Source: Rhizobium ecuadorense
Lineage (GTDB): Bacteria; Pseudomonadota; Alphaproteobacteria; Rhizobiales; Rhizobiaceae
Assembly: GCF_001187535.1 (NCBI RefSeq)
Contig: NZ_LFIO01001790.1
Location: 62,001 to 126,000, forward strand
Reading direction: 5' to 3'
Length of the DNA: 64,000 bases
Of this stretch, positions 49,631-63,566 are shown one piece after another. The translations under genes were made by a program, and so were the position numbers. The notes under the pieces were generated by a model. That model had not been told where the DNA came from. It searched no databases and saw nothing but the letters and a program-made list of their open reading frames with translations. Every line of letters begins with the position of its first letter. Position 1 is the first letter of the stretch.

Positions 49631-50515
49631 TCACGCGATCGAGCGGAGTAACGTTTCGCGGGCGGAGGTGAGATGCGCGCGGCAAGCCTGATCGATCGAG
49701 GCGATATTGCGGCTTTCCAGGGCGTCGATCAGGGCGAGATGCTCCCTGATGGCGACCTCATTGCGCGTCCGCTCATCGCGCTTGTTCCACTGATAGTGAT
49801 AGTGGAAGATGATGGCTATCACGTCCTGGAAGCTTTCGATAAAGCGGTTTGGCGCGACCACGGCAATGAGCCGATGGAATCGGCTGTCGAGCTCCGAGAA
49901 ATCCTGAAAACGGGCGTCGATATCCGCGAGCAGCTCCAAATGTGCCGCCCGCATGGCACGGACCTGCTTCCAGATGGGCGAGCCGTCGGGCAGGCTCGCG
50001 AACAATCGCGCGGAGCGCATTTCGAACATTTCCCTGATCTCGAACAGTTCGAGCGCGAAATTCGCGGTGAAACCTTTGAAAACCCAGCCTGCATTCTGGC
50101 GTTTCTCGATCAGCCCATATTTCTGAAATCGATTGAGAAACTCACGCACGATCGTTGTGGCGACCCCGAATTTCCTTGCGAGTTCCGCCTCATTGATCTC
50201 AGTGCCGGGACAGGCATTGTCGCGCAGCATCCACTCCATGAAGCTCGTCTCAACCTGTTCCGAAATGGCTAAGGTCTCTTCCTTCGGATAGCGCTCTATC
50301 TGCTGCGGGTGCTCACGGATGATCCGCCTGTGCACTTCAGATACGATGACCCCACGGGCGGACATGCTCGCCAGCACCTTCCGCACCGTCGTTCTGCTCA
50401 CGCCAAGCTGGGCGCGCAGTGCGTTTTCGGAGGGCAGTTCCGCTCCAAGATCGAGCGTCCGAAGAAGATCGATCATATCGTTGAAGGCTCGCTTGAAGGT
50501 CGTATCCGTTCTCAT
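49631..50515 (-). CDS. GntR-family regulator with two winged helix-turn-helix domains
   Basis: A 294-aa GntR regulator of the FCD type with an unusual N-terminal duplication. The first wHTH is at about residues 12-68 (LPSENALRAQLGVSRTTVRKVLASM), the second at about 92-145 (INEAELARKFGVATTIVREFLNRF), and a helical FCD effector domain follows (FEIREMFEMRSARLF, then RFHRLIAVVA). FCD GntR proteins often sense acidic sugars. It is divergent from the ABC permease and should regulate it. ATG 50515 has AGAGGTT before it. Confidence 0.88.
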   Translation of the reverse strand: MRTDTTFKRAFNDMIDLLRTLDLGAELPSENALRAQLGVSRTTVRKVLASMSARGVIVSEVHRRIIREHPQQIERYPKEETLAISEQVETSFMEWMLRDNACPGTEINEAELARKFGVATTIVREFLNRFQKYGLIEKRQNAGWVFKGFTANFALELFEIREMFEMRSARLFASLPDGSPIWKQVRAMRAAHLELLADIDARFQDFSELDSRFHRLIAVVAPNRFIESFQDVIAIIFHYHYQWNKRDERTRNEVAIREHLALIDALESRNIASIDQACRAHLTSARETLLRSIA

Positions 50516-50614
50516 GAAGCAACCTCTGGTATGATCATCTATCTATAAAAAACAAGTTGACGTACGTGTATCATATGTTTCTTATGTATAAAAAACTGGG
50601 GAGGCTAGGGGAAT
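50516..50614. promoter_or_regulatory. Divergent promoter/operator of the GntR-ABC cassette
   Basis: Two perfect 8-bp palindromes, ATGATCAT (50531-50538) and ACGTACGT (50560-50567), flank an AT-rich tract. TTGACG at 50557-50562 could be a -35 element, but the matching -10 (CTTATG at 18-bp spacing) is weak. TATGAT and its complement ATCATA are also present as a wide inverted pair. Likely GntR sites, by position. Confidence 0.45.
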
Positions 50615-51673
50615 TTGGAAGATTCGGGGATTCTGCCTCAAAATTCGTCCCGGCCTGGTGGTCCGCAAGATGCAACCTTCCATCCGAGACAATCTGGCAT
50701 CTCATTGGGGCTGAAGCTATTGAGCCTGGGCCCACTCTTGATCCTCGTTCTGCTCATCGCCGTCGTCAGTTTGATCACGCCGGCCTTTCTAAAGCCCGTC
50801 AACCTGGGGAACATCCTGGCGCAGACTGCAGGGATTGCTGTTGTGGCGATGGGGCAGCAGCTCGTCATCCTGACGCGCGGGATCGATCTGTCTGTCGGCT
50901 CGAACCTGGCGCTGGCGACGGTCATCGGCGGACTCGTCTACCATCAAATTGATTCCTCGATCGTCGTCATCGTGGCCATGCTGCTTGCAGGTGCTGTTGT
51001 CGGGGCGGTAAACGGCGTGGTCTTTGTCTATGGCCGGCTGCCGCACCCCTTCATTATCACAGTTGCGACCTTGAGCATCTGCCGCGGCCTGGCACTTTCA
51101 TTGGCGCCCGGCCACACCACCATGCGCGGGATGCCCGATGCGGTTGCCGTGATCGGCGGCGGTACGACGCTTGGTGTGCCCAACTCCTTCTTTGTCGTCG
51201 CCATATTCACGCTTCTTTTTCTGATCCTGACGAAGTCGATGGTCTTTGGCCGATGGATCTATGCTGTCGGCGGCTCGCCGAATGCCGCCAGAAGCATGGG
51301 TATCCCGGTTAATGGCGTTCTGCTCGCGACCTACATCATCTGCGGCTTTTGTGCAGGTGTCGGCGCGGTGCTGCTTGCAGGACGGACTGCCGCTGCCTCG
51401 CCAATCTACGGCAATCTCCTCGAGCTCGACACCATTGCTGCGGTGATTATCGGTGGCGCCAGCTTCCTTGGCGGACGGGGCCATCTCGGCCATGCACTGA
51501 TCGGCGCCGTTCTGATCGGTGTTATCCGCAACGCCCTAAACCTGCTCGGCGTCGACGTGTTCTTTCAAATGATCGCGATTGGGCTCGTCATCGTCATTGC
51601 CGTAGAGGCCGATGTGCTTCGCAACCATCTCGAGGCGCGCGCGCGCGTGCTTCAAACGGCGAGAATGCAATGA
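50615..51673 (+). CDS. Sugar ABC transporter permease (RbsC family)
   Basis: A 352-aa multi-helix permease of the ribose/fructose type, moving a monosaccharide through the inner membrane. It has the family GIDLSVGSNLALATVIGG (about residue 90), AVNGVVFVYGRLPHPFIITV, and SMGIPVNGVLLATYIICG. Start is a TTG at 50615 behind GGGGAGG (a closer AGGGGA is also there); the first 28 residues are polar. It overlaps the ATPase gene by four bases (ATGA). Substrate unknown. Confidence 0.9.
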   Translation: MEDSGILPQNSSRPGGPQDATFHPRQSGISLGLKLLSLGPLLILVLLIAVVSLITPAFLKPVNLGNILAQTAGIAVVAMGQQLVILTRGIDLSVGSNLALATVIGGLVYHQIDSSIVVIVAMLLAGAVVGAVNGVVFVYGRLPHPFIITVATLSICRGLALSLAPGHTTMRGMPDAVAVIGGGTTLGVPNSFFVVAIFTLLFLILTKSMVFGRWIYAVGGSPNAARSMGIPVNGVLLATYIICGFCAGVGAVLLAGRTAAASPIYGNLLELDTIAAVIIGGASFLGGRGHLGHALIGAVLIGVIRNALNLLGVDVFFQMIAIGLVIVIAVEADVLRNHLEARARVLQTARMQ

Positions 51674-52434
51674 GCGCTGGATCCACGACACCGGCACTTT
51701 CGGTACGCAACGCGCAGAAGCGCTTCGGGGCGATTCATGCCTTGAAAAATGTAAGCTTCGATGCCTATGCAGGTGAAGTAACCGCTCTTTTGGGTGACAA
51801 CGGCGCCGGCAAATCGACGCTCGTCAAATGCATCAGTGGGCTTCACAGTCTCGACGAAGGAGAAATTCTCGTCGACGGTGCTCCTGTTTGGCTCAATTCA
51901 ACCACGGCGGCCCGCCGCGCCGGTATTGAAACGGTCTATCAGGACTTGGCGCTTTTCGACAACCTGACTCCCGTCCAGAATTTCTATTGCGGCCGAGAGA
52001 TCTCCTTTCCGTCCTGGCTGCCGCGTCCGCTCCGCTTCCTCAACACGGGCATGATGAGGCGCGACGCAGCAAGCGTCATCGATCGCCTGAAGGTCAAGCT
52101 GCCGAGATTCGACGCGCCGGTTGCACTGATGTCCGGGGGGCAGCGCCAGGCGATCGCGGTCGCGCGCGCCATCGTCTTTGCGCGCAAGCTCGTGCTCCTT
52201 GACGAACCAACGGCGGCCCTCGGCCTTCGCGAGGCCCGCCAGGTTCTTGATCTGATCAATCAGCTCAAGGCCGCCGGCAATGCGGTGATCTTGATCACGC
52301 ACAATATGGAACATGTCGTCGAGATCGCCGATCGGGCGGTTGTGCTGCGCCAAGGTCGCAAGGTCGGTGAATTGAAGCCAACGGAAGCGAACAAGCAGGA
52401 CCTTGTCGCGATGATTGTCGGCGCCGGGGCTTGA
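51670..52434 (+). CDS. Sugar ABC transporter ATPase, single-domain
   Basis: A 254-aa ATPase. Walker A GDNGAGKST (about residues 36-44), signature MSGGQRQAIAVARAI, Walker B LVLLDEPTAALG, and the switch His in LITHNMEHV. Most CUT2 sugar ATPases have two fused domains of about 500 aa; this is a single domain, like FrcA, so it would act as a homodimer. ATG 51670 overlaps the permease stop. Confidence 0.92.
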   Translation: MSAGSTTPALSVRNAQKRFGAIHALKNVSFDAYAGEVTALLGDNGAGKSTLVKCISGLHSLDEGEILVDGAPVWLNSTTAARRAGIETVYQDLALFDNLTPVQNFYCGREISFPSWLPRPLRFLNTGMMRRDAASVIDRLKVKLPRFDAPVALMSGGQRQAIAVARAIVFARKLVLLDEPTAALGLREARQVLDLINQLKAAGNAVILITHNMEHVVEIADRAVVLRQGRKVGELKPTEANKQDLVAMIVGAGA

Positions 52435-52512
52435 GGGAGATCGCTGCTTCGTTGGGGCAGCGAACAACGAGATCGCTCTAGAGGAGAGCGGTCAAAACAT
52501 GGGAGGTGTATC

Positions 52513-53430
52513 ATGAAACGGCATTTCCTGCTGGGAGCTCTTGGGATCCTGGCCGTCGCTGTAGTACCGTCCTTGGCGCAGGAGCCGGTCAAGCTCGGCT
52601 TCATAACCAAATTCCCTGTACCGTTCTTCGCAACCATGGAGAACGCCGCGAAAGATTATGCGAAGAGAAATCCCGGCGTCGAGATCATTTACGGGCAGGG
52701 TACCTCCGCGACCGACATCGAGGGCCAGATTGCGCAGATCGAGTCCATGGTGACGCGAGGCGTGCAGGGCATCGCCCTTACCCCCGTCGATCCCACCGTA
52801 TCCACTGCCCTGGACAAGGCGGTTGCCGCCGGCATCAAGGTCGTGTTGATGGATAACAATATCCCGGACTGGAACGGCAGGACGGCGCTTGCCACGACCA
52901 ACAATTTCGCCGCGGGCAAAATCGCGGGCGAATATCTCAAAACGGTTCTCAAAGCCGGCGACACGCTCGGGATTCTCGAGGGCGTGCCCGGCGTGCCGGC
53001 GCTTGATGACCGTGTGAAGGGGATGATGGAAGGGCTGAACGGCCTTGACGTCAAGATCGTCGGAAAAGGCGCGACAAATTGCACCGAGGAACTCGGCATT
53101 AATGTCGCCGAGGATCTGCTCACCAAGAACCCAGACCTTAAGGCCATCTATGCCGCCTGCGGCCCGCCCGCTGCCGGCGCAGCGCGCGCAATCAAGAATG
53201 CCGGCATTGCCAATGACAACATTGTGCTGGTCGGTTTCGACTTCTGCTGTGGCGAAGAGGAAGCGCTGAAGAGTGGAGTCGAGGACGCATCGGTAGCACA
53301 GTTCCCAACCAAAATGGCTGAGCTCGGTGTGGATGCCCTGGTGAAATCGATTCGCGGAGAAAAGGTCGAGTCGTTGATCGACTCCGGCGCGGCGCTCGTA
53401 ACGCCCGACAATATGGCAACCTTCAAGTGA
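52513..53430 (+). CDS. Periplasmic sugar-binding protein
   Basis: A 305-aa solute-binding protein of the ribose-binding fold (Peripla_BP_4). A signal peptide (residues 1 to about 22, ending LAQ) precedes VKLGFITKFPVPFFATMENA; the sugar-contact pattern VDPTVSTALDKAVAAGIKVV and a D-N pair (LMDNNIPDW) are typical. Three or more Cys residues (NCTEEL, AACGPP, FCCGEE) are unusual for this family. GGGAGG lies before ATG 52513. Last gene of the cassette, with a 78-bp gap to the ATPase. Confidence 0.9.
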   Translation: MKRHFLLGALGILAVAVVPSLAQEPVKLGFITKFPVPFFATMENAAKDYAKRNPGVEIIYGQGTSATDIEGQIAQIESMVTRGVQGIALTPVDPTVSTALDKAVAAGIKVVLMDNNIPDWNGRTALATTNNFAAGKIAGEYLKTVLKAGDTLGILEGVPGVPALDDRVKGMMEGLNGLDVKIVGKGATNCTEELGINVAEDLLTKNPDLKAIYAACGPPAAGAARAIKNAGIANDNIVLVGFDFCCGEEEALKSGVEDASVAQFPTKMAELGVDALVKSIRGEKVESLIDSGAALVTPDNMATFK

Positions 53431-54060: not shown

Positions 54061-55878
54061 TTAGCTTCTGCCGAAAAGCCGCTCGATATCGCTGAGCTTC
54101 AATTCGATATAGGTCGGCCGGCCGTGATTGCACTGGCCGGAGCCGGGCGTCACTTCCATTTCCCTGAGCAGCGCGTTCATTTCCTCCGGCCGCAGCCGCC
54201 GGCCGGAGCGCACCGATCCGTGGCAGGCCATGGTCGCCGCCACATATTCGAGCTTGGCCGACAGGCCGGACGCCGTGTCCCATTCGGCGATCTCGTCGGC
54301 AAGCTGGCGGATCAGGCCATGTGCATCGACCTCGCCGAGCATGGCCGGTGTCTCACGCACGGCGATCGCCCCGGGGCCGAAACGTTCGATCGCCAGGCCA
54401 AGCTCGGAAAGCTCGCCCGCATGCTGCATCAGTCGGTCGCAATCCTCTTCCGGAATGTCGACGATCTCCGGGATGAGCAGCACCTGCGAGGCCAGCCGCT
54501 TCGAATGCAGCGCCTTGCGCATCGCCTCGAAGACCAGCCGCTCATGCGCGGCATGCTGGTCGACGATGACGAGCCCGTCCTCGGTCTGGGCGACGATATA
54601 GTTTGCGTGAATCTGCGCCCGCGCCGCGCCGAGCGGATAGCGCCCGGTTGTTTCGGGAGAGGTGGTGTCGGCTGCTGCCGGCTGCGGCGAAAACTGCGGC
54701 TCGGCGCGCGCCGTCGGCATCGACAGCCCGTCGAAAGAGGCCTGCGGCCGTTCACCGAGACCGCTTGCCGGCTGGTAGGGCCGGGAGGGCGAGGTCTCGG
54801 CCGACCATGCCGTCTGCGGCCGCTGCGCGTACGGCTGAAAACCGGGACGGAAGGCGCGCAGCATGTCGCTCGCCCCGGTCGTTGCCGCCCGGCTGCCGTC
54901 GCGCGACAAGGCCTCGCGGACGGCGCCGACGATCAGGCCGCGCACCAGGCCGGGGTCGCGGAACCGAACGTCCGATTTGGCCGGATGCACGTTGACGTCG
55001 ACGAGTGCCGGATCGAGGCTGATCGACAGCACCGCCACCGGATAGCGCCCGGAGGGAATCGTCTCGGCATAGGCGCCGCGGATGGCCGACAGGATCAGCT
55101 TGTCCTGCACCGGCCGGCCATTGACGAAGGCATATTGGTGGGCGGAGTTGCCGCGGTTGAAGGTCGGCACGCCGGCAAAGCCGGTGAGCGAAATCTCCTC
55201 GCGCACGGCGTCGAGCGCGATGGCGTTGTCGCGGAAGTCCTTGCCGAGCACCTGCGCCATACGCGCCAGATGATCGTCGCCGGTCGCCGGAAATTCCAGC
55301 GTCGTGCGGTCCGAGCCCGACAGCACGAAGCGCACGGCGGGAAAGGCGATCGCCATGCGTTTGACGATCTCGGTAATGGCGCCTGCCTCGGCTTTCTCGG
55401 TCTTCAAAAATTTCAGCCGGGCGGGTGTGGCGAAGAACAGGTCGCGCACTTCGACGATCGTGCCGGGATTGGCGGCGGCCGGGCGCAAATGCGCGATCTT
55501 GCCGGCGTTGACGGCGATCTCGTGGCCGCCGGCGCTGTCGCGCCTGCGGCTGGCGATACTGAGCCTGGCGACCGAGCCGATCGAGGGCAGCGCCTCGCCG
55601 CGGAAGCCGAGCGTGCGGATATTATCGAGCGTGTCCGATAGTTTCGAGGTGCAGTGACGCCGGACCGCCAGCTCCAGATCGGCCGCGTCCATGCCCGAGC
55701 CGTTGTCGCTGACCCGCAGCAGCACCTTGCCGCCGCCCGATGTGGCGATCTCGATGCGCGTGGCACCCGCATCGAGCGCGTTTTCGATCAGTTCCTTGGC
55801 AGCGCTCGCCGGCCGTTCGATGACTTCGCCGGCGGCGATCTGGTTGATGAGCGTTTCGGAAAGCTGTCTGATGGCCAT
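54061..55878 (-). CDS. mutL: DNA mismatch repair protein MutL
   Basis: A 605-aa mismatch-repair ATPase that couples MutS recognition to strand cutting. The N-terminal GHKL ATPase has [10 protein letters not shown] (29-38), DNGSGM (58-63) and GFRGEAL (91-97). A Pro/Thr-rich linker follows, then the C-terminal domain with the endonuclease motif [12 protein letters not shown] (about 438-449, matching DQHA-x2-E-x4-E) and CNHGRP near the end. So this MutL should be a nicking endonuclease, as usual where MutH is absent. Confidence 0.97.
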
Positions 55879-56061: not shown

Positions 56062-57786
56062 ATGAGTGCCGGCTTCGAAAAGGCGGACCCATCATCGGAA
56101 GCCGACGGGATTTCCGCCGGGGCCGATCTGCAGGCGGCGCTTTTCGATGTGGTGTGCGACAGCCTTGCGGCGGCTTTCATCATCTATGACAAGAACGATC
56201 ACCTGATCTTCGCCAGCCGCCAGACGCTGGAATTCTTCCCGCTGCCCCTGGAGATGCTGAAACCCGGCACGCGGCTTCGCGATTTCCTCGGCGCGGTCTA
56301 CGACACTGGCATTCGCCAGCAATATGACGTGAAGCAGCGCGGCTCGCTGAGCCGCGAGGACTGGCTGTCGCAGAAAATCGCCTCGCATTGGCGCGAGCGC
56401 TTCGAAGCCGTCGAGCGTCACGGCGCCGACAGCTGGGTCCGTTTCGTTAAACGCAGGCTGCCCGGCGGTTACGGCGTCACCATCATTTCCGATATTTCCG
56501 AGGACAAGAAGCGCGAAGAGCAATGGCGCTCGGATCTGGAGCGGGTGCAGCTCACCGAGGACATTCTCGACAATCTGCCGTTCCCGCTTTTCGTCAAGGA
56601 CCGCAACCTCACTTATGTCGCGGTCAATCTCGCCTTCTGCGAGAAATATCAGACGACTGCCGACGAGGTGCTCGGGCGCAAGAGCAGCGACCTTTTTTCC
56701 GAAGAGATCGCCAAGCGCTTCGAAGAGAGCGACCGTCACGTGCTGGAGACCGGCGAGATGTCCGTCTCCCGCCAGCGGCAGATCTCCCGCGACGGCATCG
56801 AGCGCGACATCGTCAGCCGCAAGCACCGCATCGGCAAGCCGGGCCGCTATTTCCTGGTGTCGACCATGCAGGACCTGCCGCGTGACGGCGCCGATCTCGA
56901 CGAGTTCGGCCGGGCATCTGCGATCACCACCTCAAGCAATCAAAGCTATCGCCGCGCCTATGTGCCGGTGCCGAGCGCCGTCGAGCGCCGCGAGCCGGCG
57001 GCGATGGAAGCGATCGTTCCGGAGAATTTCTCCGGCCGCAAGGTCCTGGTCGTCACCGCCGACCTCGCCGCCGAGACCGCCGCGCTGCGGACGCTGTCGA
57101 AATACGGTTTCGAATCCTGCTCGGTCCGCGGTGAGGACGAGGAGGAGCGGTTCCTGGAAATTGCCACTTCCTCCGGCATCTCGCTCGATCTCTTGATCAT
57201 CGACAACCAGATGGGCATGCGCTGCCTCGAACTGTCAGAGCAATACGGCATCCCGGCGCTGGTGATGGACGGTTTCCAGATTGCCAACGAGCTCACCTTC
57301 CAGATCGCCCGCCACTTCAACCGCAACAGCCGCAACAGCGGCGCCGGTGCGGATACGGATTGGGAAATCAGCATTTCCGACGACGTCGTCGGCCTGCAGG
57401 TTCTCGTTGCCGAAGACAATGACATCAACCAGATCGTTTTTTCGCAGATCCTCGAGGGTCTCGGTTATCGCCATATGATCGCGGCGACCGGCGACGAGGC
57501 CGTGCGCCTCTGGGCCGAGCACCGGCCGCAGATCGTGCTGATGGATATTTCGCTGCCGGGCTTCAACGGCTTCGAGGCCGCCCGCCTCATCCGGCAGATG
57601 GAGGAAACCGGCGGCGGAAGCCGCACCCCGATTATCGGCGTGCTCACCCAGGCCTTCGAACGAGACCACGCCGAATGCGTCAAAGCAGGCATGGACGATG
57701 TCATCATGAAACCCGTCAGCCCGGATATGCTCGAGGCCGTCTTTCAGAGGCATCTGATCGAAGAGGTGATGCGGGCGCGCGGCTGA
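56062..57786 (+). CDS. PAS-PAS-REC-REC signalling protein without kinase or output domain
   Basis: A 574-aa cytoplasmic protein. PAS 1 (about 27-145) and PAS 2 (about 165-275) are followed by a degenerate receiver (about 325-420, VLVVTADL ... LLIIDNQMG with a possible phospho-acceptor D381 but no acidic pair) and a canonical receiver (about 444-565) with E451-D452, D495 in LMDISLPG, T529 and K550. No HisKA, HATPase or DNA-binding domain is present, so it must receive phosphate from other proteins and pass it on or sense signals via PAS. ATG 56062. It lies upstream of a GGDEF/EAL gene. Confidence 0.88.
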   Translation: MSAGFEKADPSSEADGISAGADLQAALFDVVCDSLAAAFIIYDKNDHLIFASRQTLEFFPLPLEMLKPGTRLRDFLGAVYDTGIRQQYDVKQRGSLSREDWLSQKIASHWRERFEAVERHGADSWVRFVKRRLPGGYGVTIISDISEDKKREEQWRSDLERVQLTEDILDNLPFPLFVKDRNLTYVAVNLAFCEKYQTTADEVLGRKSSDLFSEEIAKRFEESDRHVLETGEMSVSRQRQISRDGIERDIVSRKHRIGKPGRYFLVSTMQDLPRDGADLDEFGRASAITTSSNQSYRRAYVPVPSAVERREPAAMEAIVPENFSGRKVLVVTADLAAETAALRTLSKYGFESCSVRGEDEEERFLEIATSSGISLDLLIIDNQMGMRCLELSEQYGIPALVMDGFQIANELTFQIARHFNRNSRNSGAGADTDWEISISDDVVGLQVLVAEDNDINQIVFSQILEGLGYRHMIAATGDEAVRLWAEHRPQIVLMDISLPGFNGFEAARLIRQMEETGGGSRTPIIGVLTQAFERDHAECVKAGMDDVIMKPVSPDMLEAVFQRHLIEEVMRARG

Positions 57787-57970
57787 TGCATGCATCAGGA
57801 GGTGTGCAGCGGTTCCGGGTGAACGACATGCCTGAAAACCAAAGACCTTAGCCGGACCAGCCGTCAACTCCTCGATTCTGGGGTGGTTCAGCGTCAATGC
57901 CTACTGATTTACTATCAAATTGTTAAGACATGCCGGTCATTCTTTGCATGGCGCGGGAAAGCTCGGGTGG

Positions 57971-59335
57971 ATGATGAAATCGGCGGATATGGCTTTCTCG
58001 ACCGTCGGTCAGAATGAGCTTCAGGCAATGGCCTATACCGATCCGCTGACCGGATTGGGTAACCGCAATCGCATGCGGGAGAAAGTCCTGCAGATCTCTT
58101 CCGAGCGCGCCAGCGATCCGGCCCCTTTCACCATCGGCATCGCCAATCTCGACAGTTTCAAGCCGATCAACGATCTCTTCGGCTCGGCCGCCGGCGACGA
58201 AATTCTTTGCCAGGTCGCTCATCGCCTCAGAGCCTGCATTCCCGATGGCGCAATGGTCACCCGCCATGACGGCGATGAATTCGCCTTCGTGCTGCCGTTG
58301 ATTTTCGAGCGGGCGAGTGCCGAGAAATTCGGCCAGATGATCCGCGAAGTGCTGTCGGCCCCCTATGATCTCGGCGACCGTAATGTACGTCTCTCTGCCT
58401 CCCTCGGTTTTGCCATCTACCCCTTCGCCGGAGAAGATTGCGAGGAACTGCTGAAGAGCGCCGAAACCGCGCTCTACCGTTCCAAGCGCCGCGGCCGCGG
58501 CCAGATTACCGTCTATTCGCGCGAGATCGCCCAGGAAATGAAGCGCGCGACGCAGCTGGAGCAGGCGCTCAGAAACGCCATCATATCGGACGCGATCGAC
58601 GTGCATTTCCAGCCGATCGTCTCGCTCTCCAACAATCAGGTCGTCGGCTTCGAGGCGCTTGCCCGCTGGAACGATCCCGATCTGGGCTTCGTCTCACCCG
58701 GCGTCTTCGTGCCGCTCGCCGAAGAGCGCGGCTTCATCGATGCGCTGTCGGAAGCGCTGCTGCGCAAGGCGGCGGAAGCAGCGCTCTCCTGGCCGCGCGA
58801 ACTCTTTCTGTCCTTCAATCTCTCCTCGGCCCAGCTGATGGACCCGGGCACGAGCGGCAGCGTGCTGTCTATCCTCGGCCGCGTCGGCTTCGATCCGCAT
58901 CGCCTGGAGCTTGAAATTACCGAGACGGCGGTGATGAGTTCGGCCGATACCGCCCACCGCATCATCGCCGACCTCCGCGCCGCCGGCGTGCGCATTTCAC
59001 TCGATGATTTCGGCACTGGCCAGTCGAGCCTCGGGCGCCTGCGCGACTTCATCTTCGACAAGATCAAGATCGACCGCGCCTTCGTCTCCCGCATCAATTC
59101 CGACCGCGCCTCCGAACACATCATCAAGGCGATCCTGACCATGTGCGACGGCCTTGAGCTGGAAGTCGTGGCCGAGGGCATCGAGGATTATGCCGAAGCG
59201 GTGAAACTGCGCACGCTCGGCTGCGGCATGGGCCAGGGCTATCACTTCGGCCGCCCGGCCGACGGCATCGCCACGCTGCGTTTCCTGCACGAGAATTACT
59301 ACGATCCGGGCTTGGTGGAGCGTGTCAGCGCCTAA
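57971..59335 (+). CDS. GGDEF-EAL cyclic-di-GMP protein with altered GGDEF
   Basis: A 454-aa protein with a GGDEF domain (about 15-175) and an EAL domain (about 195-440). The GGDEF active site is DGDEF (100-104), first Gly replaced by Asp, so cyclase activity is doubtful. The EAL domain is intact: E228 (FEALARW), N283, E315, D345-D346 (SLDDFGTG), K366 and E402, with GYHFGRP. So it is probably a phosphodiesterase whose degenerate GGDEF may bind GTP as a regulator. ATG 57971 is chosen; a TTG upstream at 57920 is in frame. No membrane segment. Confidence 0.9.
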   Translation: MMKSADMAFSTVGQNELQAMAYTDPLTGLGNRNRMREKVLQISSERASDPAPFTIGIANLDSFKPINDLFGSAAGDEILCQVAHRLRACIPDGAMVTRHDGDEFAFVLPLIFERASAEKFGQMIREVLSAPYDLGDRNVRLSASLGFAIYPFAGEDCEELLKSAETALYRSKRRGRGQITVYSREIAQEMKRATQLEQALRNAIISDAIDVHFQPIVSLSNNQVVGFEALARWNDPDLGFVSPGVFVPLAEERGFIDALSEALLRKAAEAALSWPRELFLSFNLSSAQLMDPGTSGSVLSILGRVGFDPHRLELEITETAVMSSADTAHRIIADLRAAGVRISLDDFGTGQSSLGRLRDFIFDKIKIDRAFVSRINSDRASEHIIKAILTMCDGLELEVVAEGIEDYAEAVKLRTLGCGMGQGYHFGRPADGIATLRFLHENYYDPGLVERVSA

Positions 59336-60290: not shown

Positions 60291-61178
60291 TCAGATTACA
60301 TAGACCGGATCGAACACGCCTTTGACGTCGATGCCGAGTTCCAGCAGCGCGCCGGCGCTGGGCTGCGCAGAACGGGCATCCTCATCGAGGCCCTCCCAGG
60401 CTGTTGTCACCGCCAGCCGGTCGGCATTGACGCCGATGAAGGCGGGGCAGGAGGGCTGGACGGCGGGAACCTTGTAGCGCGAGATGCGCAGCCCGTCCGG
60501 GTTGTAACGGTCGACGACGCCGGCGCCCCAGCGCGAATTCCAGATATAACCGTCGGCATCGACCACCGAGCCGTCGATGTCGCCGGGCTCGTTGGCGCTG
60601 TCGACCAGCACGATCGGCTCGCCTGTGGGCAGGCCGGTCTGCGGATCGACCATGACGCGCATCAGCCGGTTGAGGCGGGAGTCGGTATAATAGCCGATCG
60701 TACCGTCAGGCGAGAAGCAGATCGAATTCGGGATGCTGATGCCGTTGAAGATCTTCGTCACCTTGCCGCTGGCGACATGATAGATGGCGCCGGCCTGGTT
60801 TTCCGCCCGCTTGCTCATCGTCCCGATCCACAGCGCACCGGAAGGATGTGTGCGGCCGTCATTGGAGCGGTTTTCCGGCTTGTCGTTTTCGAGCGCGGCG
60901 TAGAAGGTGAGGTTGCCGCTCGCCACATCGCGAACGAAAAGCCCTTCCTCCGTTGCGATCAGCTGCCGTCCGGCGTCGATACGGGCAAGCACGCTCGCCA
61001 TGGCAGGCAGCGGATGCACCTTTTTCGCGCCCGTCGAAAGATTGAGCTCGTGCAACTCCTTGCCGAGGATGTTGAACCACCAGACGGTGTTGCTGTCCGG
61101 ATCATAGGTCGGGCCTTCGCCGAGAACGGAATTGGTGTTGCAAAGGGTCTTGCCCTCGAACTCGTAGATATCGGTCAT
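60291..61178 (-). CDS. SMP-30/gluconolaconase-type sugar lactonase
   Basis: A 295-aa six-bladed beta-propeller lactonase (SMP-30/Gluconolactonase/LRE). Metal ligands are evident: the N-terminal VLGEGPTYDP (Glu), IPNSICFSPDG (Asn), and DIDGSVVDADGYIW (Asp). It would hydrolyse the aldonolactone made by the SDR to the acid. ATG 61178 lies 4 bp past the dgoA stop; GGGAGCG just before it serves as ribosome site. Last gene of the operon. Confidence 0.9.
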   Translation of the reverse strand: MTDIYEFEGKTLCNTNSVLGEGPTYDPDSNTVWWFNILGKELHELNLSTGAKKVHPLPAMASVLARIDAGRQLIATEEGLFVRDVASGNLTFYAALENDKPENRSNDGRTHPSGALWIGTMSKRAENQAGAIYHVASGKVTKIFNGISIPNSICFSPDGTIGYYTDSRLNRLMRVMVDPQTGLPTGEPIVLVDSANEPGDIDGSVVDADGYIWNSRWGAGVVDRYNPDGLRISRYKVPAVQPSCPAFIGVNADRLAVTTAWEGLDEDARSAQPSAGALLELGIDVKGVFDPVYVI

Positions 61179-61182
61179 ACGC

Positions 61183-61815
61183 TCACGCTCCCATGGCTGC
61201 ATCATAGGCGTAAATGGTCGCCTTGGCGCGCTCGGCAACCTCTGCCGCGGTCATTCCCGGTTTGTAGAGGCTGGTGCCGAGGCCGAAGGCGAAGATGCCG
61301 GCCTTGGTATAATCGCCGAAATTCTTGTCCGACACGCCGCCGACGGCGGCAATCGTCAGTTCCGGCGGCAGGATCGCCCGGATCGCCGTGATACCGGAGG
61401 GCCCGAGCACGCTCGCCGGAAAGAATTTGAGACCGGTGGCGCCGGCGCGCGCGGCCGCCAGCGCCTCGGTCGGGGTGAAGACGCCGGGCATTGTCACCAT
61501 GCCGTATTGGCGCGCCCGGATGATTACCTCGGGTTCGACATTCGGCGTGACGAGCAGTGTGCCGCCGGCCGCATGCAGGCTATCGACCGCCTCGACTGTC
61601 AGCACCGTGCCGGCGCCGATCAGCACCTCGGCCGGCGCCATCTTTGCGGCGATCTCGATCGATTTGAACGGTTTCGGCGAATTCAGCGGGATCTCGATCG
61701 CCGTCAGGCCGTTGTCGATCAGGGCGCCGACAACGCTCTCGGTCTCGTCGGGCCGGATGCCGCGAAGGATGGCGATCAGCGGGCGTTTCATGTCGGGGAA
61801 GGGGATACGGTTCAT
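61183..61815 (-). CDS. dgoA: 2-dehydro-3-deoxy-6-phosphogalactonate aldolase
   Basis: A 210-aa class I aldolase that splits KDPGal to pyruvate and glyceraldehyde-3-phosphate. It has the KDPG-aldolase IAILRGIRPDE, AIEIPLNSP with the catalytic Glu, LIGAGTVLT, and GLKFFPASVLG with the Schiff-base Lys. ATG 61815; the frame is open 25 codons longer. It is 13 bp after dgoK and 4 bp before the lactonase gene. The phospho-gluconate isomer aldolase Eda is similar, but the neighbouring dgoK favours galactonate. Confidence 0.93.
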   Translation of the reverse strand: MNRIPFPDMKRPLIAILRGIRPDETESVVGALIDNGLTAIEIPLNSPKPFKSIEIAAKMAPAEVLIGAGTVLTVEAVDSLHAAGGTLLVTPNVEPEVIIRARQYGMVTMPGVFTPTEALAAARAGATGLKFFPASVLGPSGITAIRAILPPELTIAAVGGVSDKNFGDYTKAGIFAFGLGTSLYKPGMTAAEVAERAKATIYAYDAAMGA

Positions 61816-61828
61816 CGTGTCGGCTTTC

Positions 61829-62743
61829 TCAATTCGGCCAGATGGCTTCGGCGGCGGCCGAAAGCCCGCGGCGCACGGCGGCGTCCGCATCGATGGCGGT
61901 GAAGGTCAGGGAGAGGGTTTTGAAGGCCTGTTCGTAGAGCGCCTGCAGGCGCCCTGAGGCGACCAGGGTGATGCCTGAGTTGGCGGCATCCTGCAGCGCG
62001 CCGGCGATTTCGAGGCCGATCAGCGTGCCGGAAAGCCGGGCTTGCGCTGATGCGGCCGAGATCCCGTGCAGGAGCTGGCCCGAGCGGGCGGTAAACAGCA
62101 GATTGGAGGCAAGGGCCGGGCGCTGGAAAGCGGCCGATACCGCCGCCTCGAAGGCGGCTGCATCAGCAGGCTGCTCCTCGGCGCCGGCAACGGCATGCGA
62201 CAGGATCGTGTGTTTGCTGATGACGTCGAAGAGTTCGCCGGTCATGAAGGTCGAAAAGCCGGTGACCTTGCCGTCGCCCACATGCACCCACTTCGAATGG
62301 GTGCCGGGCATGCAGACCGCCTGGGCGCCCGAGCTTGCGGTGCCGAGCGCGCCGAGAAGCTGGGTTTCCTCGCCGCGCATGACGTCGGGTGTCGCCTTAT
62401 CCCGCTGGGCAAGGCCCGGCAGGATGCGGATGTCGCGGGTTTCTCCCGGCACGGAGACCGCCGCCGTCAGCACCGAGGTGAGCGGCGCCGGCACGTCGAT
62501 ATAACCGGCCTCGACCCAGCCCTGCCGGGCGCCGGCCATGCCGCAGACGATCACCGGCAGGTTCTCCGGCGCCGCGACGGCGGCGAGATGGCCTGACAGC
62601 ACTTGGGAAAAGCCGGTTTTTGCGGCACTCGTCATGCCTTCGCCGCTGCGGCGTTCGGCAAGAATGCCGCCGTCCCTGCCGATCAGCCAGAGCCGGAAGC
62701 TGCTGGTGCCCCAGTCCACCGCGACATAAGCGGGATTAGCCAT
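61829..62743 (-). CDS. dgoK: 2-dehydro-3-deoxygalactonokinase
   Basis: A 304-aa sugar-acid kinase making KDPGal from 2-dehydro-3-deoxygalactonate. The N-terminal AVDWGTSSFRLWLI phosphate-binding strand and the family CGMAGARQGWVEAGYIDVPAP and PGTHSKWV motifs identify DgoK. ATG 62743 shares a base with the SDR stop (TAATG), so the genes are coupled. Length is standard. Confidence 0.94.
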   Translation of the reverse strand: MANPAYVAVDWGTSSFRLWLIGRDGGILAERRSGEGMTSAAKTGFSQVLSGHLAAVAAPENLPVIVCGMAGARQGWVEAGYIDVPAPLTSVLTAAVSVPGETRDIRILPGLAQRDKATPDVMRGEETQLLGALGTASSGAQAVCMPGTHSKWVHVGDGKVTGFSTFMTGELFDVISKHTILSHAVAGAEEQPADAAAFEAAVSAAFQRPALASNLLFTARSGQLLHGISAASAQARLSGTLIGLEIAGALQDAANSGITLVASGRLQALYEQAFKTLSLTFTAIDADAAVRRGLSAAAEAIWPN

Positions 62744-63504
62744 TACAAAATGCCTCCATCGACAATCAGGGACTGGGCGGTCATTCCTGCCGCGCAGTCG
62801 GATGCAAGAAACAGGCAGGGACCGACGATCGCGTCGGGCTTGAGGGCGACCTTCAGGCATTGCTGCTCCACCGAGCGCACGATGCTCTCTTCGGTCAGCC
62901 ACAGCTGCATTTGCCGTTCGGTGAGCACCATGCCGGGCAGGATGCAGTTGACCCGGATATTCTCCGGCCCGAGCCGGCCGGCCAGGCTCTTGGTCAGCCC
63001 GACGACTCCAGCCTTCGCCGCCGCATAGGCAGGAAAACCGCCCATATTCAGCTTGAAAGCGATCGACGACATATTGATGATCGCCCCGCCGCCGGCCGCC
63101 CGCATCGATGGCGCCACTGCCTGCGAGGTGAAGAAGACGTGCCGCAGGTTGACCGCCTGGTTGTTGTCCCAGTAGGCCTCGGTCACCGCGTCGAATTCAT
63201 GGCGGTCGTCCCAGGCGGCATTGTTGACGAGCACGCGGATCGGCCCGGAGTTGGCAACGACGGTATCGACCGTGCGCCGGATCGCCTCGATGTCGCGCAG
63301 GTCGGCATGGTGGAAGGAGACCGGATGCGCCGTCTCCGGCGACAGCCTCTCGGCAAGCGCGCGGCCGGCCGCCTCGGCGATGTCGATGAACGAGACCTTG
63401 GCGCCCTGGCGCGCGAAGCCTTCGACGATCGCAGCGCCGATGCCCGATCCGCCGCCGGTTACCAGTACGGTTCGGTCTCTGAACTCCGGAAATTGTGCCG
63501 ACAT
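62743..63504 (-). CDS. SDR-family sugar dehydrogenase (probable galactose 1-dehydrogenase)
   Basis: A 253-aa short-chain dehydrogenase. The cofactor-binding TGGGSGIG is at about residues 16-23 and the catalytic YAAAK (with MSSIA upstream) at about 155-159. In the De Ley-Doudoroff route the first step oxidises galactose to galactonolactone, and this is the only dehydrogenase in the operon. It could instead oxidise a related sugar such as fucose or arabinose. ATG 63504; the frame extends to 63537. First gene of the operon, divergent from IclR. Confidence 0.85.
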   Translation of the reverse strand: MSAQFPEFRDRTVLVTGGGSGIGAAIVEGFARQGAKVSFIDIAEAAGRALAERLSPETAHPVSFHHADLRDIEAIRRTVDTVVANSGPIRVLVNNAAWDDRHEFDAVTEAYWDNNQAVNLRHVFFTSQAVAPSMRAAGGGAIINMSSIAFKLNMGGFPAYAAAKAGVVGLTKSLAGRLGPENIRVNCILPGMVLTERQMQLWLTEESIVRSVEQQCLKVALKPDAIVGPCLFLASDCAAGMTAQSLIVDGGIL

Positions 63505-63530
63505 CGCAGTCGCCCTTTGATATTCAATTT

Positions 63531-63566
63531 GTTCCATTATATGGAACTTAATTTGACTATATGGAA
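63531..63566. promoter_or_regulatory. Candidate IclR operator with two repeats 20 bp apart
   Basis: GTTCCATTATATGGAAC (63531-63547) is a perfect inverted repeat with 7-bp arms. Its right part TATATGGAA (63538-63546) recurs at 63558-63566, exactly 20 bp on, or two helical turns. It is in the 102-bp gap between the IclR gene and the catabolic operon. The minus-strand sequence TATAAT lies within it and could be a -10 of the operon. Confidence 0.6.

Follow-up and report, generated by a model that had tools for sequence, protein, structure and literature searches.

Two adjacent genes in a stretch of 64,000 nucleotides from Rhizobium ecuadorense (contig NZ_LFIO01001790.1, positions 62,001 to 126,000; hereafter the window), taken from a genome of 7.38 Mb, may form a cell-cycle-timed module acting on cyclic di-GMP (c-di-GMP). 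The first, P1, carries two PAS sensor domains, a pseudo-receiver (pREC) and a receiver (REC2); the second, P2, is a probable c-di-GMP-degrading enzyme of GGDEF-EAL build; and a conserved candidate binding site for CtrA precedes P1. In the mechanism proposed here, CtrA would set when P1 is transcribed, with P2 following by read-through; REC2 would be phosphorylated by another kinase, most likely an intact paralogous hybrid kinase with a CtrA-type box of its own; the PAS domains and phosphorylated REC2 would raise or lower the phosphodiesterase activity of P2 by direct contact; and the DGDEF domain of P2, a protein with no sensor domain, would be a GTP-binding or structural element and not a cyclase. 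Taken whole, we put this mechanism a little short of an even chance, confidence being held down mainly by the step at which P1 is supposed to touch P2. Less is understood of the link between the CtrA circuit and c-di-GMP in rhizobia and related bacteria than in Caulobacter. For control running from CtrA to c-di-GMP, this locus is a conserved candidate present throughout the genus, and it supplies a sharply defined promoter box, a specific acceptor residue (D495) and a putative donor kinase. An original prediction, made from the letters of the DNA, had placed two neighbouring frames on one strand here, and both lie where it put them, on the plus strand; the CtrA-type box and the relation of P1 to hybrid kinases go beyond it. 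The features of the locus are as follows.

54061-55878, minus strand: mutL, divergent neighbour and conserved marker upstream of the locus, an open reading frame of 605 residues
55976-55990, plus strand: CtrA-type box TTAA-N7-TTAA, palindromic with the flanking G and C, 86 base pairs (bp) 5' of the P1 ATG
56062-57786, plus strand: P1, PAS-PAS-pREC-REC, 574 residues; alternative start GTG 56047
56158-56520, plus strand: first PAS domain of P1 (PAS_7), Pfam, residues 33-153
56557-56874, plus strand: second PAS domain of P1 (PAS_4 / S-box), residues about 166-271; Pfam PAS_4 match 169-257
57028-57336, plus strand: pREC of P1, residues about 323-425; four strands, without the acidic pair, D381 retained
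57391-57759, plus strand: REC2 of P1, residues 444-566; Pfam Response_reg 447-559; E451, D452, D495 and K550 present
57971-59335, plus strand: P2, GGDEF-EAL, 454 residues from ATG 57971; alternative start TTG 57920
58262-58282, plus strand: altered GGDEF signature RHDGDEF, P2 residues 98-104
58562-59257, plus strand: EAL domain of P2 with a complete catalytic signature

P1 had been described as a protein of two sensors and two receivers, one lacking the acidic pair, with neither kinase nor output domain, and Pfam, the predicted structure and an alignment of 31 relatives agree with that description. PAS_7, PAS_4 and Response_reg were called in all 31 relatives, no kinase family stands among the 13 Pfam families listed for them, and Pfam found no HisKA, HATPase or output domain in P1 even at E<=10. 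The first receiver is without a Pfam match; its predicted structure is a receiver fold of four strands, one short (predicted local distance difference test score, pLDDT, 90.4), and the best rows of a structure comparison were nearly all receivers (Z 10.7-12.4 across 91-106 residues). The positions of its acidic pair are occupied by T332 and A333, with an acidic residue at 332 in one of the 31 rows and at 333 in one, and the phosphoacceptor equivalent D381 is retained in 29. This domain is a pseudo-receiver, having kept the receiver fold and lost key phosphotransfer residues; in our own reading of the alignments, offered as such and not as a result, the missing piece would be beta4-alpha4 and the lysine would be replaced by D403. 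Of the four domains it varies most, its median identity in other genera being 33%. REC2, by contrast with its neighbour, keeps E451, D452, D495 and K550 in 31/31 and is predicted to be phosphorylatable in every relative; the label of scaffold first given to P1 understates its residues. The Thr/Ser switch position, 529, holds A in 15 rows, T in 8, V in 4, S in 3 and P in one. With two PAS and two receiver-fold domains, P1 is not a single-domain protein of DivK type. A remnant of a kinase core between the second PAS domain and pREC was considered and rejected: nothing there matches Pfam at E<=10, and residues 275-320 have pLDDT <50 and a median identity of 9% in other genera. Within the poorly conserved linker between pREC and REC2, W434 (57361-57363) is Trp in 22/31 relatives and is a possible docking point, while a candidate P1-specific linker motif, DWxI, was matched in just 17/31. 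Alignment A2 comprised 29 of the 31 P1 rows, with L195 and L196 left out. In one genome the complete P1 is immediately followed by a further match to part of it (G289:C11:793202-793729; residues 397-573, 76%), an apparent duplication of REC2 in a frame of 188 residues.

In P2, nothing was found beyond the GGDEF and EAL domains, a sensor included. The EAL, NLS, EITE, DDFGTG, KID and AEGIE elements are all complete, and the motif reading bears out the original call of an intact EAL beside an altered GGDEF (RHDGDEF), in which the GG(D/E)EF signature of diguanylate cyclases is absent. Across 154 distinct P2-like sequences, a set that includes overlapping loci and near relatives and so counts sequences and not events, AEGIE is present in 154, EITE in 153 and DDFGTG in 152; the GGDEF site reads RHDGDEF in 103, RHGGDEF in 16 and RHEGDEF in 8, which makes the alteration a feature of the family and not a local change. 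P2 thus carries the signature of an EAL-type c-di-GMP phosphodiesterase and is probably a c-di-GMP-degrading enzyme. Two relatives depart from this picture: one of 567 residues (L192 3627-5327, plus strand) has a long, hydrophobic-looking N-terminal extension unlike the sensor-less P2, and one match (G353:C35:366051-367346) is interrupted by a single in-frame TAA, which may reflect a pseudogene or an error in sequencing.

The pairing of the two genes is kept across the family, which takes it well beyond chance. P1 was found in 148/148 genomes of the genus, in one of them (G307, a fragmented assembly) by a fragment of 151 residues. In a sample of 247 family genomes, 65 matched P1 at E<=1e-35, of which four (G394, G432, G503, G545) were dropped since their matches were receivers of other long open frames, leaving 61. 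P2, at E<=1e-120, was present in 164 of the 247 and missing at that threshold from 83; all 61 genomes with P1 had P2. Fisher's test gives p = 2e-13 for this co-occurrence, a value overstated because the sample is phylogenetically structured. Conserved adjacency had been set beforehand as a test, and in 58/61 the gene immediately 3' of P1, in the same orientation, is P2 (six of these pairs measured from partial P1 matches), which makes the suggested single circuit plausible. Relative to the window, P1 at the loci from other genera (L041-L066) is 41-50% identical and P2, seen in 23/26 of them, 73-82%; P2 is thus much more tightly constrained. The MutL reading frame at these loci shows a 72-83% match. 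In an order-wide sample (n=297; profile search, E<=1e-60) P1 was confined to its own family: seven genomes matched, four with P1 and three by the pREC-REC end only, in frames of 784-791 residues.

The second line of evidence is the box. With the CtrA consensus taken from PMC7003649, an exact TTAA-N7-TTAA was found between mutL and P1 in 135 of the 140 loci with mutL in view, out of 167 with a P1 match; the other five have TTAA-N7-TTAG in the same place, are mutually similar, and encode a P1 78-80% identical to that of the window. As these 140 include many close relatives, the better test is provided by 28 loci from other genera (L041-L066, L195, L196), drawn from 28 of the 57 other-genus genomes with P1. 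There the box lies upstream of P1 in 28/28 against 0.05 expected, with spacer bases that vary among loci. Spacing is equally sharp (N7 in 28/28, N6 in 1/28, all other spacings from 2 to 12 in 0/28), and permuted half-sites at N7 were found in nine loci for TAAT, six for TTTA, two for AATT and none for the remaining A/T permutations. Within the genus, 112 loci have spacing 7 in 107, spacing 2 in 24 and spacing 5 in 8. No box was seen in the P1-P2 gap (0/25), in the body of P1 (0/25) or at loci with P2 alone (0/18). Assigning the box to mutL or to P2 was rejected, since neither those 18 loci, among them three where mutL is in view, nor the P2 loci in three rearranged genomes have it. Both strands of the source genome hold 43 matches to TTAA-N7-TTAAC against 24 for the reversed pattern, which leaves single matches weak and rests the argument on conservation. 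Together these counts suggest that a conserved candidate CtrA site precedes P1, of the motif expected in the CtrA regulon. The paralogous intact kinase has such a box near the start of its open frame in 30/30 genus loci (the best 30 of 60 genomes); in one (L244) the box falls within the open frame by 49 bp, the start codon there not being fixed.

The third line concerns where P1 came from. The best relative of its REC2 in the source genome (49%) is the last receiver of a frame of 1138 residues with PAS, HisKA, HATPase_c and two receivers, and identities to the REC2 of the own-genome hybrid kinase run from 49-52%. Profiles were built from nine REC1 and ten REC2 pieces of such kinases, the REC1 of L203 being left out; in hhalign comparisons pREC matched kinase REC1 with probability 98.5 (E 2e-15), against 9.4 for kinase REC2 and 30 for its own REC2, while P1 REC2 matched kinase REC2 with probability 100 (E 7e-68). 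The tail of P1 lines up, domain for domain, with REC1-REC2 at the end of intact hybrid kinases, pREC answering to REC1 and REC2 to REC2, and P1 is for that reason most readily taken for a hybrid kinase from which the core has been lost. The tandem-REC kinases compared (the frame of 1138 residues; L183, L194, L198-L204) share with P1 this tail, upstream PAS domains in most, and a REC2 46-56% identical; they differ in possessing HisKA and HATPase_c (5/5 scanned), both absent from P1, and in a REC1 that mostly retains the acidic pair lost from pREC. A REC2 tree places 36/37 P1 rows in one clade (96/88) among hybrid-kinase receivers, with L196 outside; a tree holding all 37 together is not rejected (p-AU, from the approximately unbiased test, 0.114). 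The nearest kinase branch (L198 861-3443, minus strand) is an intact PAS-HisKA-HATPase_c hybrid kinase whose own REC1 is degenerate. The simplest history would be loss of the kinase core within a kinase of this family, at a site that need not be the present locus. At two of the 18 loci with P2 and no P1 (L183, L194) the gene directly 5' of P2, in the same orientation, encodes an intact hybrid kinase with receivers of this family; P2 has thus been paired a second time with the family, and in the tree these two kinases stand away from P1. As a whole conserved family that has retained the sensors and receivers of a hybrid kinase without the kinase, P1 bears on what pseudo-receivers do.

A likely ortholog of the pair has been met in Sinorhizobium meliloti, where SMc00888, a receiver-domain protein, and SMc00887 form an operon of unknown function that is regulated by CbrA and CtrA, has a CtrA motif upstream, and is lowered by EcpR1 and by mutation of podJ, according to passages of PMC11500502 and PMC4414408; its expression in a cbrA mutant is down in one passage of PMC11500502 and up in its figure legend. 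As described, a receiver gene and its operon partner, together resembling divK-pleD, with a CtrA motif, fit P1-P2, and the authors link the operon to c-di-GMP. SMc00887 we take to be a GGDEF-EAL protein. One of the papers calls SMc00888 a DivK homolog, whereas P1 has four domains and a REC2 nearer to hybrid-kinase receivers than to the DivK of its own genome. Within the literature searched for the pair, these two papers alone name it, and by the terms looked for it is not mentioned in the main texts of Brilli 2010 and Pini 2015. SMc00074 was rejected as an ortholog of P2, being the membrane protein RgsP. Should SMc00888-SMc00887 be orthologous, the mechanism set out above would supply a mechanism-level hypothesis for an operon that these papers know from transcript data.

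Several observations weigh against that mechanism. Firstly, P2 occurs without P1 in 103/164 genomes, so P2 can do without P1, and P1 cannot be an obligate subunit. Secondly, in three genomes of one genus (G438, G510, G568; loci L058, L045, L048) the two genes lie 5-6 kb apart on opposite strands; the box stays with P1 and none is in view at P2, which sets up a natural experiment on the need of P2 for the box. Thirdly, the intergenic gap runs from 85-774 bp (median 128; 164 loci, partly non-independent), which excludes translational coupling and makes co-transcription an assumption; in the window it is 184 bp to ATG 57971 or 133 bp to TTG 57920. Fourthly, position 529 is Thr or Ser in so few rows that REC2 is doubtful as a receiver with the classical conformational output. 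Finally, the Sinorhizobium operon is matched by description alone, and 9/9 hybrid-kinase loci outside the genus have no box in the stretch examined, some offering little upstream sequence. A more particular version, in which P1 is one half of a split hybrid kinase, is unlikely: a core-less, CtrA-controlled, PAS-sensing acceptor would take phosphate from the intact co-regulated paralog and signal to the adjacent phosphodiesterase, tying c-di-GMP destruction to the cell cycle, with pREC as a retained docking or ligand domain.

It is also conceivable, and rather improbable without being far-fetched, that P1 acts on kinases and not on P2, draining phosphate from, or binding and inhibiting, its co-regulated intact paralog or some other kinase of the cell cycle, as CtrA-made feedback, with P2 simply on the same transcript or in the same regulon. 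The closeness of P1 REC2 to the own-genome kinase receiver, the boxes at both genes and a Thr/Ser switch so often lost, as would be expected of an acceptor more than of a receiver with an output, all favour this, and there is a precedent in Osp of Rhodobacter sphaeroides, a CtrA-activated, response-regulator-like protein without a kinase that inhibits CckA (PMC9430884). Osp is, however, single-domain, and its abstract mentions no neighbouring phosphodiesterase; nor would action on kinases account readily for a P1 never found without P2, or for P2 standing, in two other genera, beside an intact kinase with receivers of this family. Quite unlikely, too, is a shared regulon and nothing more, in which two CtrA-regulated genes with independent biochemical roles are kept together by operon structure and synteny with mutL. 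That mutL also stays adjacent points to a generally conserved local order, and P2 is widespread without P1; against this, P1 implies P2 in 61/61 although P2 is missing at the threshold from 83 of the 247 genomes, with the caution on phylogenetic structure already given.

For pREC itself, the closest parallels to a pseudo-receiver with a function come from a review of pseudo-receivers (PMC12632262) and from Caulobacter ShkA. ShkA has the order DHp-CA-pREC-REC, and its pREC, without phosphotransfer function, binds c-di-GMP (PMC7010744); P1 shares the pseudo-REC followed by REC and differs in lacking a kinase core before it. The P1 profile matches ShkA (6qrj) through REC2, and the P1 model aligns with it over 401 columns, yet Foldseek superposition gives a root-mean-square deviation of 24.6, which means that the domains match one by one only. 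It is very improbable that pREC likewise senses c-di-GMP, with P1 reading the pool that P2 drains, since pREC is shortened and poorly conserved and, in a comparison made at the level of whole domains, no place in it could be assigned to ShkA Y338 and DDR; the P1 linker has instead the partly conserved W434. On the side of P2, the comparison is with Caulobacter PdeA (CC3396), described as an EAL phosphodiesterase within the cell-cycle network. PdeA combines a GGDEF-EAL build with a GEDEF motif and activation by GTP, and has an N-terminal PAS domain, unlike P2; the two were compared at the level of GGDEF-EAL only.

A promoter scan of the locus returned no sigma-70-like promoter, an Rfam scan gave no match, and a terminator scan found two terminator-like sites, none of them in the P1-P2 gap, a count below that of shuffled sequence. 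Around the pair, with genes named by eye from translations, the window holds a sugar-acid pathway-like cluster (60291-63537, minus strand) of SMP-30/gluconolactonase-like, KDPG-aldolase-like, sugar-acid kinase-like and SDR dehydrogenase frames, and an RbsC/RbsA/RbsB-like sugar ABC transporter set with a divergent GntR-like regulator (49631-53430).

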